Shown: positions 6,020-20,256 of the stretch, piece by piece | Position numbering within the stretch: the first letter of the stretch is position 1 | Layout of the letters: every line of letters starts with the position of its first letter | Origin: a virus | Virus record (IMG/VR): IMGVR_UViG_3300032246_001980 | Location: 1-21,571 of that record | Reading direction: 5' to 3' (one strand) | Length of the DNA stretch: 21,571 bases | Notes under the pieces: generated by a model | What the model was told of the DNA's origin: nothing | Databases searched by the model: none | What the model saw: the letters and a program-made list of their open reading frames with translations, nothing else | Position numbers and translations under genes: made by a program

Positions 6020-6065
6020 ATTGATAAATACTTTAATTATAACTATATTTAAAGTAAAATTTTTT
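6020..6065. promoter_or_regulatory. Divergent 46-bp control region
   Basis: This gap separates the starts of the minus-strand neck gene (6019) and the plus-strand SET gene (6066). Facing the neck gene it has AGTATTTATCAA (motif at 6024-6030), ending 4 nt before the ATG. Facing the SET gene it has CTATATTTAAAG (6042-6053), a near match, and the plus-strand GATAAATA at 6023-6030, one mismatch from the T4 late consensus. A leader of 4 nt would make the neck mRNA nearly leaderless if TATTTAT is the -10 element. All regulatory readings are inferred. Confidence 0.4.
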
Positions 6066-6464
6066 ATGAGGATAAATCCAACAACCAAAATTTATGTTAA
6101 AAGTAGCTCAATTCATGGGTTAGGCGTTTTTGCATCTGAAGACATTAAAGAAGGGGAAATCTTAGAAGTCTGTAATGTAATTGATATGGGTATGAGATTT
6201 GGAGAATCTAGTCACATATTAATTGACTATAGATTTAATTGGCCTCAAGGAGGGAATTCTTGGGAAAAACAAGTGGTACCAACAGGTTTTGGATTACTTT
6301 ATAATCACAGTAATACCCCAAATGCTGCGTGGAGGTCAAATCTCGAAAACAATACATTTGAATTTTACTCTACAAAAAATATAAAATCTGATGAAGAAAT
6401 TTTTGTGTGGTATGGCGACATTAATTATTGGAATGACGGAAGGACCCACACTAATGTTATTTAA
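6066..6464 (+). CDS. SET-domain protein (probable lysine methyltransferase)
   Basis: A 132-residue stand-alone SET domain. SET enzymes move a methyl group from S-adenosylmethionine to protein lysines. The family blocks are all present: the cofactor loop IHGLGVFASEDIKEGE (residues 16-31), the NHSNTPNAAW block (80-89), matching the usual N-H-S-x-x-P-N signature, and the C-terminal IKSDEEIFVWYGD (106-118) with the catalytic-type Tyr. The start is taken at ATG 6066; an upstream TTG would add residues overlapping the divergent promoter. It is the first gene of a plus-strand run and the SNF2 gene follows after 5 bp. The target could be a virion or host protein. Stand-alone SET proteins are uncommon in phages. 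Confidence 0.85.
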   Translation: MRINPTTKIYVKSSSIHGLGVFASEDIKEGEILEVCNVIDMGMRFGESSHILIDYRFNWPQGGNSWEKQVVPTGFGLLYNHSNTPNAAWRSNLENNTFEFYSTKNIKSDEEIFVWYGDINYWNDGRTHTNVI

Positions 6465-6469
6465 TTAAT

Positions 6470-8221
6470 ATGGAAGTTAGTTTAGAATCAAAAGCGATGT
6501 CCTTGTTGGAAGAATACGAGGGAGCCAACAACTACATTCTTGAGCTTAAGAGGAAGTCACAGTTAAATAAAAAGTTTTATCCTACAAGGAGTCAATCCGA
6601 GTATATCATAAACAATCACGACAAGACTCCTAAAGTGGCTAAGAAGTGGGTGGTTCTTGATGCTTATTTTGCTCAGAGATTAGCAGATGATAAACTATAC
6701 ACCACAATACCTGAAAAGGTTTGGGTTGAGAAATTACTTGCGGACAAAGAAAAGGCGTTTCACATTTGGGGAAAAGTTTTTGATAATGAAGAACTTCATG
6801 ATTTTTGGTTACCTAAAGCGGCAGTAATTAAAGATAACACCGTAAAAGATGTTGTTATCAGTTATGAAAAATATTCTAAACGACCTCCACTATCACACCA
6901 AAAAGAGGCAATACAAAAACTTGTTGAAAACAAGAAATACATTTTGGCTGATGATATGGGTCTTGGTAAAACTACCTCAACAATAATTGCCGCTCTTGAG
7001 AGTAGAGCTAAAAAGATATTAATTATATGTCCTGCGAGTTTGAAGATTAACTGGCAGAGAGAAATTGCAAACTATACAGATAGAAGTGTTTATATTTCTG
7101 AAGGAAAGAACTTCAGTCAAGAACACGACTTTGTTATTATAAATTACGATATTATAAAAAATTTCCACAATGTTAAAAAGAAATCTGATTCGCAAATTCT
7201 TGGAGCCAATTTTGATTTGGTGGTCGTTGACGAAGCACACTATATTAAAAACGGTCAAGCACAAAGAACAAAACTAATCAATGACCTTGTAAAAAAAGTT
7301 GATAGACTTTGGTTGTTAACCGGTACACCAATGACCTCAAGACCAATGGACTACTTTAACTTATTAAGTTTGGTTGATTCGCCCGTAGCTAAAAATTGGA
7401 TGGCATACGCCATCAGATATTGTAGTGGATATCAGTTTAATGCTGGTGGTAGAAAGATATGGAATGTTACAGGTGCCAGTAATCTTGAAGAATTAAGAGA
7501 CAGAACCTCTGGTCTTACCTTGAGAAGATTGAAAGAAGATGTTTTAGATTTACCTGATAAGATTATAACACCAGTATACCTTAGATTAAAGTCCAAAGCT
7601 TATGAGGATATCATGGGTGAATATTATGATTGGTATGATAAAAATCCTGATGAATCAAAATCACTTACCGTACAATTTACCAAATTAACAAAAATACGAC
7701 AAGTAATTGCCGATGAGAAGATTAGTCAAACAATTGAACTTGCGGAGAACATTGTCGAACAAGGAAAAAAAATCATTATATTCTGTAACTTCACAGACTC
7801 ACTATCTAAAATATGTGAACATTTTGGAAAGACTGCCGTAAGAGTTGATGGCTCAACACCAAAACACGAAAGACAAAACGCTGTTGACCAATTCCAAGAC
7901 AATGAAAAAATTAAAGTGTTTGTTGGTAACATCAAAGCTGCCGGTGTTGGTTTAACATTAACCGCAGCTGAAGCCGTTATTATGAATGACTTATCATTCT
8001 TACCATCAGACCACTCACAAGCCGAAGACCGTGCCTACAGATACGGTCAAAAGAACAATGTATTAGTTTATTACCCCATATTCGAAAACACAATCGAAGG
8101 AATTATCTACGACATATTAAATAATAAAAAACAAGTGATTGCCACAGTTATGGGGGACAATCAAAACACGACAGATGCTGCGGAGGAAATTCTCAAGAGA
8201 ATTCAAGAAATGCGTCGTTAA
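6470..8221 (+). CDS. SNF2-family superfamily 2 helicase/ATPase
   Basis: A 583-residue DNA-dependent ATPase. Motif I is DDMGLGKT at 161-168, Ia is ICPASLKINW near 186-195, II is VDEAHYIKN at 253-261, and III is LLTGTPMTSRP near 282-292. A TLRRLKEDV segment (350-358) is typical of the SNF2 linker. Motif IV is IIIFCNFTDS near 435-444, V is IKAAGVGLTLT near 488-498, and VI is QAEDRAYRYGQ at 517-527. The QxxDRxxRxGQ form of motif VI is characteristic of SNF2 rather than UvsW-type helicases. The closest known architecture is the annealing-helicase / SMARCAL1-like type. The 140-residue N-terminal part has no motif I recognise. In size and likely role (fork remodelling, recombination-dependent replication) it could stand in for T4 UvsW, but that is inference. 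It starts 5 bp after the SET stop, so the two are probably cotranscribed. Confidence 0.92.
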   Translation: MEVSLESKAMSLLEEYEGANNYILELKRKSQLNKKFYPTRSQSEYIINNHDKTPKVAKKWVVLDAYFAQRLADDKLYTTIPEKVWVEKLLADKEKAFHIWGKVFDNEELHDFWLPKAAVIKDNTVKDVVISYEKYSKRPPLSHQKEAIQKLVENKKYILADDMGLGKTTSTIIAALESRAKKILIICPASLKINWQREIANYTDRSVYISEGKNFSQEHDFVIINYDIIKNFHNVKKKSDSQILGANFDLVVVDEAHYIKNGQAQRTKLINDLVKKVDRLWLLTGTPMTSRPMDYFNLLSLVDSPVAKNWMAYAIRYCSGYQFNAGGRKIWNVTGASNLEELRDRTSGLTLRRLKEDVLDLPDKIITPVYLRLKSKAYEDIMGEYYDWYDKNPDESKSLTVQFTKLTKIRQVIADEKISQTIELAENIVEQGKKIIIFCNFTDSLSKICEHFGKTAVRVDGSTPKHERQNAVDQFQDNEKIKVFVGNIKAAGVGLTLTAAEAVIMNDLSFLPSDHSQAEDRAYRYGQKNNVLVYYPIFENTIEGIIYDILNNKKQVIATVMGDNQNTTDAAEEILKRIQEMRR

Positions 8222-8260: not shown

Positions 8261-9799
8261 ATGAACAAAACAGAAGAGAAAATTCAACTAACAGAAAACA
8301 AAATAATTGAATCAAAAGTTGAAGAACAAGCCAATCAGTTAATTACTGAAATGAAAAAAATTGGAATAGAAAAATTACCCTATTCCTACTCAGCCCTTAA
8401 ACAATTCATTGACCCAGAGACAATGAACTTTCACTACAACAAACATTATAAAGGTTATGTTGATAAGTTAAATGATGCTCTTTCAAAGAAAAAATACGGG
8501 GACTTAGAGTTAGAACAAATTATCAAAACGATAAGTAGGTTCGATAAATCAATCAGAAACAATGCGGGTGGGGCATTTAACCACGCATTATTCTGGAACA
8601 TGCTAACACCAACACCAAAAAAATTAGAGGGTGACCTTTATAAAAAAATTATAAAAAATTTTGGTAGTTTTCCCGCATTTAAGAAAAAGTTTGAAGCAAT
8701 TGCCAAGGATAGGTTTGGTTCAGGTTGGGTATGGTTAGTTCTTACTGCCAATAACAGTTTAAAAATTATGTCTACACCAAACCAAGACAATCCGTTAATG
8801 AACGTGATTGAGAATGGTGGATTTCCACTTTTAGGTTTAGACCTATGGGAACACGCATATTATCTAAAGTATAGAAACAAAAGAGATGAATATATTGCAA
8901 ACTTTTGGAAAGTTGTGAATTGGGATTTTGTAACCAAAATGTACGAAATGAAAACTAAAACAAAGTTAGCTGAATCGTTAGAATTAAAACAACTTATGTC
9001 TGAAGGAAAATCGGAAGCCTGTTCTCCTGAAAAAACTGATTTCTACAGAAAGTTATTTAACACCCACAAAGAAATTGAAACAAAATACAGAGCAGGTATT
9101 GAAAAAATTTTAATCGAAGTATTCAGTGACTTGTATGTTTCAAATCCACCAGAGGGGGAATTACCAGGAATATTTAATTTAGAAAATAATGGAAGGTCCG
9201 TTATTAACAAGTTGAATACAAATTACACAACATTCTGTATTTTACTTAATGATATCAATCAAGTGATTAAAACAATCGAAGGTAAAAAACCAATTGTGTT
9301 TAAAGGTAAAACCCCAAAAGAACAAGTTAAAGAAGTTGTAAGATTTGTTAACGCTTTAGACCATTTTAAATACAGAATATTCGATACAAAAAGTTTAACA
9401 TTTATTAATATAATGAGAACTTTAGAAGAAAAAAATGCAATGGGTGATAAAAGAGAAGAAATAACGGCAACAATATTAAGAAGATTTTTTGGTAAAGATG
9501 TTAAAGTTGAACAAGTTGGTAAATTGGGTAGTAAAGAAGATGCTTTATCAGGTGTTGATTTAAAATTAACTAACGGAGACAAAACAGAAACCGCACAAGT
9601 AAAACCATACAAAGTTAAAGTTGTTGATGAAGAAAAAGGAACAATTACACTTTTTGGTACCGGTAAAGTTAAACATTATTATACCGATTTATTAATTTTT
9701 CAAAAAGGAAAAAACGTTTTAATCTTTAATCAAAAACCTAAAATAATGGGAGGTAATTATGTGTTCCCAATTGATGCGTTGAAGTTAAATATAGAATAA
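8261..9799 (+). CDS. Fe/Mn superoxide dismutase domain fused to a C-terminal (possibly PD-(D/E)XK-like) domain
   Basis: A 512-residue protein about 2.5 times the length of a normal SOD. Residues about 37-232 form a complete Fe/Mn SOD: LPYSYSALKQFIDPETMNFHYNKH with metal ligand His58, NHALFW with His108, and LGLDLWEHAYYLKY with Asp194 and His198. The ligand spacing and the DxWEHAYY signature match active enzymes, which convert superoxide to oxygen and hydrogen peroxide. Residues about 235-400 are charged and helical. Residues about 396-510 read REEITATILRRFF, then GVDLKL, then ETAQVKPYK; Asp433 and Gln446-x-Lys448 fit the D-xn-(E/Q)-x-K core of restriction-endonuclease-like folds. No signal peptide. 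It sits between the SNF2 helicase and the neck gene. The SOD call is firm; the nuclease-like reading is a pattern guess. Confidence 0.88.
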   Translation: MNKTEEKIQLTENKIIESKVEEQANQLITEMKKIGIEKLPYSYSALKQFIDPETMNFHYNKHYKGYVDKLNDALSKKKYGDLELEQIIKTISRFDKSIRNNAGGAFNHALFWNMLTPTPKKLEGDLYKKIIKNFGSFPAFKKKFEAIAKDRFGSGWVWLVLTANNSLKIMSTPNQDNPLMNVIENGGFPLLGLDLWEHAYYLKYRNKRDEYIANFWKVVNWDFVTKMYEMKTKTKLAESLELKQLMSEGKSEACSPEKTDFYRKLFNTHKEIETKYRAGIEKILIEVFSDLYVSNPPEGELPGIFNLENNGRSVINKLNTNYTTFCILLNDINQVIKTIEGKKPIVFKGKTPKEQVKEVVRFVNALDHFKYRIFDTKSLTFINIMRTLEEKNAMGDKREEITATILRRFFGKDVKVEQVGKLGSKEDALSGVDLKLTNGDKTETAQVKPYKVKVVDEEKGTITLFGTGKVKHYYTDLLIFQKGKNVLIFNQKPKIMGGNYVFPIDALKLNIE

Positions 9800-9823: not shown

Positions 9824-10951
9824 ATGTCAGTAATACCAGAACCAGAAAGGTCAAAAATATACACTAGAATTAAGCACTTATTAGGTGCTCCATTGAGAAG
9901 TGTTGAAGTAGAAGATGAAATGATGGATTCACTTATGGAACTATCTATTCAAGACTATGAGGAATATATTCTACAATGGTTAATTGATAGTCAATGGGTT
10001 AACTTAGTTAATCTTAACATGAGTGAAAAGTCTGTTGCTAAAGCCCTTGTTACAAGAACAATGGATTTTGAACAACAATTTGCATACTCATATTCTAAAA
10101 TTGTTGGACTTCAAACAATGGGTCCTTGGGTTTTAAAGAAAGATTATTTCATACTTGAAAAGAATAGACAAAACTACGAAATCCCTGCGGGTCGTGAAGT
10201 TAATGAACTTTTATGGTTCAGTAACCAAGATTGGACAGCATTCGGTTTAGGTGGTGTTGGTGGATTTGGAATGGGTGGTGTTGGTTTAGGTGCCAATGAA
10301 GCAGGATTTGCTCAAATGGGTTATCAGGGTTCTTATTTTATGATGTCAGGTTTTGACTATCTAATAAGAATGCAAGAAGCTAATATTCTAAATAGAATTT
10401 TGGGTGGTTCGTTAACATATAGAATTACCGGATTACCTGATGGCAAAAAGAATGTATTCTTATACAATACTCCTGGTGGAAAATTCAACTGGAATCAATA
10501 TAGTGATTATGAAGGAAAGGCTGTTTGGTATTGGTATTATGATGTAGGTCCTGATGATAGAGCCGCTTGTTTAAAAGCAAACAAAGATATTATCAAACTA
10601 CCAACAGACGTACCATTAGAAGAACTTACTTGGGAAGAATTAAATGTTCCCGCAAAACAATGGGTTAGAAGATGGTTTACTGCTTATGTAAAAGAAACAT
10701 TGGCAAGAGTAAGAGGAAAATATAGTGGTAATTTAAAAACACCAGACTCTGAAATAACAATGGATTATACAAGTTTGTTAACTGAAGCAAAAGATGAAAA
10801 ATCAAAATTGTTAGAAGAACTAACAGGAGCTGAAGGTTGGTTAACAAGATTAAGACCCGAAAAGGTAATGGAGAGAGAAGCACAAATTGCAGAGAATTTG
10901 AATAAACAAATGAAATTCAGAGCAATGCCTCGTCAAATATATGTAATCTAA
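9824..10951 (+). CDS. gp13: Neck protein, gp13 type (head completion / connector)
   Basis: A 375-residue protein with both ends typical of T4-like gp13. The N-terminal block IKHLLGAPLRSVEVEDEMMDSLMELSIQDYEEYI (residues about 16-49) matches the 'LG.P...VEV.D..L...I..A' helical start. The C-terminal half has KQWVRRWFTAYVKETLARVRGKY (278-300), a TMDYTSLLTEA block and a closing LRP segment. In T4, gp13 joins gp14 to complete the head and receive the tail. Between them lies a glycine-rich tract (residues 141-167, GLGGVGGFGMGG and on) followed by aromatic segments. The next gene begins 4 bp after the stop. The gp14/gp15-like genes are on the opposite strand about 4 kb away, unlike the T4 order. Confidence 0.75.
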   Translation: MSVIPEPERSKIYTRIKHLLGAPLRSVEVEDEMMDSLMELSIQDYEEYILQWLIDSQWVNLVNLNMSEKSVAKALVTRTMDFEQQFAYSYSKIVGLQTMGPWVLKKDYFILEKNRQNYEIPAGREVNELLWFSNQDWTAFGLGGVGGFGMGGVGLGANEAGFAQMGYQGSYFMMSGFDYLIRMQEANILNRILGGSLTYRITGLPDGKKNVFLYNTPGGKFNWNQYSDYEGKAVWYWYYDVGPDDRAACLKANKDIIKLPTDVPLEELTWEELNVPAKQWVRRWFTAYVKETLARVRGKYSGNLKTPDSEITMDYTSLLTEAKDEKSKLLEELTGAEGWLTRLRPEKVMEREAQIAENLNKQMKFRAMPRQIYVI

Positions 10952-19188: not shown

Positions 19189-20256
19189 TTAACAAAGATT
19201 ACTTGATGTAATAAGACCTGAACCACCCGTTACTTGATAGAATCTTGTACCGTTAGAGTAATATCCATTAGGTGCTGGTGTGGTCTTAGATGAGTTAAGG
19301 TATAATGTTTCTCCAACATCAGGTCCATCAGCTTGAGATGCTAAACCATAAATATTTTGACGTGATGCAACACACGCATCGTTAGATGTTGCTCCTGTAC
19401 CTAAACTATAAACAACATATGTTGGTGTTGAACTTGGTGTTAATGATGGAGTTGGTGTTAATGATGAAGTTGGTGTAGGTGTTGGAGTTGCCAAACAAAC
19501 GGAGATTGCTCCTACAGTACCTTCGCTATCTAATTCATAAACATCACCATCATAAACATAATATCCTGCTAAATTAACCTCAGGACATAATCCTGAAGAA
19601 CATCCGTAAAAGAATGTATTATTTGAGAATATTGGGTCATTACCAAATATTGTTGCGGTAAGTGATGTATAACAAGCATCAGAAGATGTGTCTTCACTGT
19701 GTGGAACAACAAATCTATATCTTGTAGGTTGAGGGTCAGTTGGTGATGGTGTTGGTGTAATTGTAGATGTTACAGATGGTGTATTCGTTTGAGTTTGTGT
19801 ATTAGTTGGTGTTTGTGTTGGAGTACCTGTTGGTGTTCCAGTGTTAGTTGGAGTTTGAGTATTTGTTGGAGTTTGAGTATTTGTTGGAGTTTGAGTATTT
19901 GTTGGAGTTTGAGTATTTGTTGGAGTTTGAGTATTTGTTGGAGTAACACTTGGTGTTGGTGTATTTGTACCTGTATTAGTTGGTGTTTGTGTCGGTGTTG
20001 GTGTGTTTGTTGCAGTATTAGTTGGAGTTTGTGTTGGAGTTGGAGTTACTTTTGGTGGAGGGAACACACCTAAATCAACTTCAACAATACTTGTTGGAAA
20101 TGCTGTTGAGTAAGTTGTATCTAATAACCAAATGTTTTTTGTTTGGTTTGGTGCCAACTCAACTTGGTATTCCCACATTGCGTCGTCACATCTTTGATAA
20201 TTAAAGTTCACAATTGTTGAACCCGTATTCGTTAGTGTATATTTGCTACATGCCAT
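19189..20256 (-). CDS. Mucin-like Thr/Pro repeat protein with duplicated C-terminal Cys-bearing domain
   Basis: A 355-residue protein. Residues 1-66 form a compact beta-rich head with Cys3 and Cys23. Residues about 71-178 are almost only Thr, Pro, Asn, Gln, Gly and Ser, with five exact TNTQTP repeats at 107-136. Residues about 180-254 and 281-355 are two copies of one domain: SDAC near the start, an IFG/IYG turn, FFY or LYL, AGYY or NGYY, and a closing Cys. A second Thr/Pro linker (about 257-280) joins them. The shape (head, extended stalk, paired end domains) suits a virion fibre or adhesin, and no secretion signal is present. It has its own promoter region and terminator. The adjacent glycosyltransferases could decorate its Thr residues. 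The repeats may change copy number, varying stalk length. No enzymatic motif is seen. Confidence 0.85.
   Translation of the reverse strand: MACSKYTLTNTGSTIVNFNYQRCDDAMWEYQVELAPNQTKNIWLLDTTYSTAFPTSIVEVDLGVFPPPKVTPTPTQTPTNTATNTPTPTQTPTNTGTNTPTPSVTPTNTQTPTNTQTPTNTQTPTNTQTPTNTQTPTNTGTPTGTPTQTPTNTQTQTNTPSVTSTITPTPSPTDPQPTRYRFVVPHSEDTSSDACYTSLTATIFGNDPIFSNNTFFYGCSSGLCPEVNLAGYYVYDGDVYELDSEGTVGAISVCLATPTPTPTSSLTPTPSLTPSSTPTYVVYSLGTGATSNDACVASRQNIYGLASQADGPDVGETLYLNSSKTTPAPNGYYSNGTRFYQVTGGSGLITSSNLC
19847..19936 (-). repeat. Five perfect 18-bp tandem repeats
   Basis: The plus-strand unit GTTGGAGTTTGAGTATTT is present five times without a mismatch at 19847-19936, with a partial sixth to 19944. Each unit encodes six residues (a TNTQTP permutation) in the minus-strand protein. 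Flanking Thr/Pro codons are diverged versions of the same unit. Exact identity in a short array suggests recent slippage or unequal recombination. As the unit is a multiple of three, copy changes keep the frame. Confidence 0.97.

Follow-up and report, generated by a model that had tools for sequence, protein, structure and literature searches.

A superoxide dismutase and a PD-(D/E)XK nuclease fold in one chain at a fixed locus of T4-like phages: a possible head-packaged precursor

Within the 21,571-nucleotide stretch of viral DNA analyzed here (the window), a single gene encodes what we predict to be two enzymes in one chain, a Mn-type superoxide dismutase (SOD) followed by a PD-(D/E)XK nuclease. 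Alignments and a structural model demonstrate the domain identities and the intact predicted active sites, while the enzymatic activities are inferred. The account we favor, to which we give even chances as a whole, with the two-enzyme reading as one of its parts, is that the protein is packaged in the phage head as a precursor, that the prohead protease processes it, and that SOD and nuclease are injected with the DNA. Packaging, cleavage and function are each inferred.

Results

The fusion gene at 8261..9799 (+ strand, as are all features of this gene) is a single open frame of 512 aa, bearing out the initial annotation, which had described about 280 residues beyond the SOD. Residues 1-30 (8261..8350, with the boundary at 8351) form an N-terminal extension that ends in I28-T-E30 and is a candidate leader or capsid-targeting propeptide, a function we infer. 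The Mn-type SOD domain follows at about residues 31-232 (8351..8956), assigned from Pfam matches, PDB matches and the homologue alignment. A linker of residues 233-255 (8957..9025) contains two (I/L)-x-E-type motifs, L236-A-E238|S and M246-S-E248|G, and leads into a helical region of residues 256-392 (9026..9436) and a PD-(D/E)XK nuclease-fold domain of residues 393-512 (9437..9796). We found 384 relatives of the SOD-nuclease protein in IMG/VR. Two scans gave 158 IMG/VR loci, the window's own included, with 63 distinct proteins, and all 63 are SOD-tail fusions of 508-512 aa, which makes the fusion a stable, widespread gene. An assembly artifact, raised as a concern when the gene was first described, is ruled out by the recurrence of these 63 full-length fusions on many independent contigs.

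Both Fe/Mn SOD domains score well above the Pfam cut-off in the fusion protein (Sod_Fe_N, PF00081, residues 36-115, 80.2 bits, E 1.6e-22; Sod_Fe_C, PF02777, residues 124-226, 134.6 bits, E 1.5e-39). Searching PDB sequences with the fusion returned 161 distinct sequences at E <1, the best at 5.6e-60 to MnSODs. The four metal ligands named in the initial annotation, His58 (8432..8434), His108 (8582..8584), Asp194 (8840..8842) and His198 (8852..8854), are present and invariant in 63/63 distinct homologues. The same holds for the Mn-type marks GG-x-x-NH and Gln175 of TPNQDNP (63/63), and the second-shell residues that we inspected are identical in 63/63. Across usable sequence pairs, the median dN/dS was lowest in the SOD (0.043) and higher in the linker (0.136), in the helical region and the nuclease (0.20 each) and in the N-terminal extension (0.255). 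The nearest cellular SODs are mainly from Bacteroidota, at about 50-53% identity, and this likeness suggests that Bacteroidota is the host phylum or else was the donor. We found no Shine-Dalgarno-like sequence upstream of the ORF at 8261-9799; its lack would fit Bacteroidota, although this is weak evidence.

A possible PD-(D/E)XK-like domain had been proposed for the end of the protein from two patterns, GVDLKL with Asp433 (9557..9559) and QVK with Gln446 and Lys448 (Gln446-x-Lys448, 9596..9604). Both are there, as the predicted catalytic Asp and the predicted catalytic (E/Q)-x-K. The first reading overlooked Glu399 (9455..9457), the predicted catalytic helix Glu and the fourth invariant residue of the predicted nuclease site. 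E399, D427, D433, Q446 and K448 are invariant in 102/102 distinct tails, the most divergent being 26% identical to that of the window, and most other positions vary among these tails. Searched as a single sequence, the tail had no hit above cut-off in Pfam, PHROGs, PDB sequences or isolated phages. The tail has weak matches to DUF6602 (E 0.0014) and to PADLOC PD_DExK (E 0.029), and no sequence relation above cut-off to the named Pfam nuclease families.

With the whole fusion, only SODs were among the best 50 Foldseek matches to the PDB that were listed, and we therefore modeled the tail separately. The AlphaFold2 model, built from a shallow alignment of 16 tails, had a mean pLDDT of 82, with the last 120 residues mostly >85 except for two loops. 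Foldseek of this model against the PDB placed I-Ssp6803I and Hjc on top (E 0.02-0.04, probability 0.98-0.99). VIA-align matched it to Archaeoglobus fulgidus Hjc (2wcw) with Z 8.5 and 3.5 A over 104 residues, a score only just over VIA's own caution level. The rows below Hjc are mostly PD-(D/E)XK enzymes (SPARDA, NhoI, RecU, PvuII, EcoRV), and those outside the superfamily (e.g. tRNA splicing endonuclease, Rep15) are few and lower-scoring. Such a list of structural matches cannot rule out other relatives of the tail. A profile search of PDB sequences found no match to the tail, and the likeness to Hjc is one of fold only; for the helical region (residues 256-392) no fold match was found. A non-nuclease fold, the outcome that would have refuted the original proposal, was not seen, and the proposal is supported by the fold comparison together with the invariance of E, D, Q and K. 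The predicted fold and active site of the tail are established at the level a model allows, and DNA cleavage is inferred from them.

The gene sits, as originally described, between two conserved neighbors, a SNF2 helicase upstream (6470..8221, +; PF00176, E 2.2e-30) and a neck or head-completion gene downstream (head-tail adaptor Ad2-like, 9824..10951, +; phrog_211, E 1e-10). A family B-type polymerase is encoded near the fusion gene. Upstream of the helicase lies a SET-domain protein (6021-6464, +; PF00856, E 2.5e-14), which is present in only part of the relatives. Elsewhere in the window, positions 19189-20256 (-) encode a protein with long PTxTPT(N/Q) repeats.

We sampled the SOD by a DNA-pattern search of IMG/VR that was not conditioned on the tail, which yielded 120 ORFs. 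Of these, 72 have the nuclease tail, 21 are plain SODs, 6 have other tails, 9 have an N-terminal HExxH-bearing domain and 12 combine a HExxH-bearing domain with another tail. Classes were assigned by tail-profile match and HExxH motif, and the few ORFs cut by contig ends are perhaps misplaced. In every class, the majority of loci with sufficient flanking sequence show the SNF2 helicase on the upstream side and the neck gene on the downstream side. In a second sample, drawn by the neck gene, the SOD lies upstream in 44/49 new loci, and the other five (L482, L484, L514, L526 and L548) are natural empty sites where the neck gene comes straight after the helicase. From the class flanks and the neck-gene sample, we conclude that the SOD gene of these loci is one orthologous gene, with which the phages can dispense; its SOD is constant and its partners are exchangeable. 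Gene order and domain predictions thus demonstrate a fixed locus in T4-like phages at which interchangeable partners surround a constant SOD.

The partners themselves are diverse. An N-terminal domain with LAHEWVHxYQ ... NEDEANA precedes the SOD in L177:1-10006, L190, L170, L234 and others; this HExxH-bearing domain is zinc-peptidase-like, with weak Pfam matches. L190, L162, L170, L179, L202 and L208 have a different C-terminal tail, GQD...(Y/F)(I/F)QVKP, which is PD-(D/E)XK-like by motif, and L202 (914 aa) has it twice, each copy after its own L-x-E-S leader. The motif of this L190-type tail resembles that of the nuclease tail, but hhalign gave a probability of only 6 and homology was not shown; the test was weak because the alignment mixed several unrelated tails. 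Further unrelated C-terminal tails of 360-400 aa follow the HExxH-SOD in L169, L277, L182, L163 and L280, and the one of these that we tested had no Pfam match.

Three (I/L)-x-E motifs, whose middle residue is free to vary, mark the beginning of the SOD (E30), its end (E238) and the beginning of the nuclease half (E248). In the all-class alignment, the residue at -9 from the SOD core is Glu (E30) in 94/96 sequences, with I or L at P3 in 92/96 and a variable P2. After the SOD, P1 (E238) is Glu in 107/109 and P3 is L or I in 106/109, again with a variable P2, and ten residues further on P1 of the third site (E248) is Glu in 96/108. Plain SODs of the same clade also have E at -9, and in the most divergent members (e.g. 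L165, L171, L204) it is shifted or lost.

The (I/L)-x-E motif is the rule of the T4 prohead protease. Prohead proteases of the T4 type and of giant phages cleave C-terminal to Glu (PMC5694885); T4 gp23 loses 65 residues, and T4 gp21 removes nine residues from itself (PMC9958956). A 182-kb relative with the fusion, G001, encodes both a gp21-type protease (Peptidase_S77, E 1.7e-23) and a gp23 capsid protein, neither of which was found inside the 21.6-kb window. The capsid protein of the clade has a predicted site LINE|A at about residue 60 in 64/64 sequences, close to the cleavage position of T4 gp23, and since these proteins are closely related, its invariance shows that the site exists and not that it is under special constraint. 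By capsid protein, the nearest isolates are Flavobacterium phage immuto and Microcystis phage Mel-JY01, and both are distant. At residue 8, 28/36 prohead proteases of the clade have ILE|A, and some lack this motif. By sequence pattern, the motifs of the SOD-nuclease protein match these predicted cleavage sites. Across the proteome, 9/412 proteins have leader-like N-termini, compared with 0.58 in shuffled sequences; this enrichment is real but small, orthologues were counted, and some of the nine are the SOD itself. In G001, unrelated proteins at 108576-109043 (L287), 122712-123575 (L288) and 172677-173297 (L290) start with a leader such as MKTVKLTESDITRLVKRVLSEQ and are possibly further head-targeted cargo. 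The T4 late promoter TATAAATA did not occur above chance in the window.

Discussion

We hypothesize that the fusion protein is made late and that its leader would bring it into the prohead core, each enzyme module being preceded by a leader of its own. The gp21-type prohead protease would then cut after E30, E238 and E248. The first two cuts would free a SOD of normal length, and the third the nuclease half. Once freed, both enzymes would remain in the head beside the packaged DNA and be injected into the host together with it. In the infected cell, the SOD may remove superoxide that arises from infection-disturbed respiration or from a response of the host, ahead of phage gene expression; the nuclease may act on host DNA or DNA intermediates, although its substrate and the reason for its pairing with a SOD are unknown. 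We count the modular exchange at one locus beside the neck gene as support for this account. A SOD carried in the virion has a counterpart among the giant viruses of eukaryotes (PMC9405923). That the virion delivers a functional SOD and nuclease freed by the prohead protease, from a cassette in which effectors are exchanged around the constant SOD, is a proposal we hold at just short of even confidence. Packaging and cleavage remain unproven, because we found no virion proteomics for this clade. The motif (I/L)-x-E is also short, and its conservation in Glu-rich helical linkers could instead serve helix capping or packing.

The main rival to a packaged precursor is an uncut bifunctional enzyme that works in the infected cell without any packaging, combining a SOD of the auxiliary-metabolism type, which would shield the host or the replicating phage DNA against superoxide, with a nuclease for replication, repair or junction resolution. 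We doubt this explanation but consider it a real possibility, since the SNF2 helicase adjoins the gene, the polymerase is close by, the top fold match of the tail is a Holliday junction resolvase, and Fe/Mn SOD is listed as a ROS-buffering auxiliary gene in putative Microcystis viruses (PMC12542629). It leaves unexplained, however, why three conserved (I/L)-x-E sites with a free P2 stand exactly at the domain borders and why unrelated partner domains are swapped around a constant SOD. The initial annotation had guessed that the protein might guard DNA or virion against superoxide, or that the SOD fold might be put to structural use. The location just upstream of the neck gene could also mean that the SOD fold serves the head or neck as a structural or docking module, with catalysis incidental. 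The strong constraint on the domain (dN/dS 0.04) argues against a purely structural use, and neither its low dN/dS nor the invariance of every ligand and second-shell residue inspected would be expected of an enzyme kept only for its shape. Moreover, five loci run from helicase directly to neck, so not every member needs the gene for assembly, and we regard this role as very improbable.

A separate question is whether the C-terminal domain has the PD-(D/E)XK fold without a nuclease role, for example binding DNA only. Gln replaces the usual Glu of E-x-K, the Z score is below 9 and the model rests on a shallow alignment, all of which leave room for this idea. Against it, E, D, Q and K are kept in 102 tails whose other positions mostly vary, and Q-x-K is generally known as an active variant in the PD-(D/E)XK superfamily (Mrr-type). 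We therefore think a non-nuclease tail unlikely.

SOD genes of environmental phages are interpreted as auxiliary metabolic genes of benefit to the host. If the SOD is instead virion cargo, as the packaged-precursor account would have it, it acts on the injected DNA or in the first minutes of infection, and superoxide would be something that phages must meet at entry. The cassette also offers a catalogue of candidate injected effectors (nucleases, the HExxH domain and unknown tails) belonging to a widespread uncultured T4-like clade.

The phage SOD shares all ligands, the Mn-type signature and a full-length domain with cellular Fe/Mn SODs (PF00081/PF02777), and differs from them by its 30-aa N-terminal extension and its nuclease-fold domain. 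The initial remark that a SOD in a phage is unusual needs qualification, as it is not unique: plain Fe/Mn SODs are annotated in PA5oct-like Pseudomonas phages and in the jumbo Vibrio phage 2.275.O. These are unfused and only 27-29% identical to the window SOD. We found no SOD-nuclease fusion in isolated phages (50,697 phage records), no paper on such a fusion in a search that was not exhaustive, and no tail in 84,980 prokaryote genomes, hence no prophage or cellular source. UniProt A0A6J5L953 (uncultured Caudovirales phage, 501 aa) is apparently the same fusion, with 50% identity over 482 columns, but is annotated only as 'superoxide dismutase', its second domain unnamed. Foldseek with the whole model also matched BFVD A0A8D9CCA0 (1113 aa, uncultured marine phage; E 5e-16, 16% identity, 555 columns), and this match could be a larger protein related to this architecture. 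The tail has the core fold and the E-D-(E/Q)xK site in common with PD-(D/E)XK nucleases (Hjc, I-Ssp6803I, the SPARDA nuclease, NhoI), and differs in the unmatched helical region that precedes it.

The closest functional precedents are the T4 internal proteins and Alt, which are leader-targeted, processed by gp21 and injected (PMC3012670, PMC9958956); a SOD is not reported among the internal proteins in these two papers. The clade is likewise T4-like, with gp21 and gp23, and has (I/L)-x-E at the module starts. In contrast to T4, where the capsid-targeting leader has 10-20 residues, the extension of the fusion is longer at 30 aa, shares only the end motif, and heads a precursor with two enzyme modules. 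Polyvalent proteins (PMC5512222, which does not mention SOD) also place disparate activities in one chain and exchange modules, as the SOD cassette does. Their zincin is absent from the window protein, and some relatives have the HExxH domain with its weak Pfam matches. Unlike polyvalent proteins, the SOD cassette is predicted to be cut by the prohead protease and does not depend only on a fused zincin.
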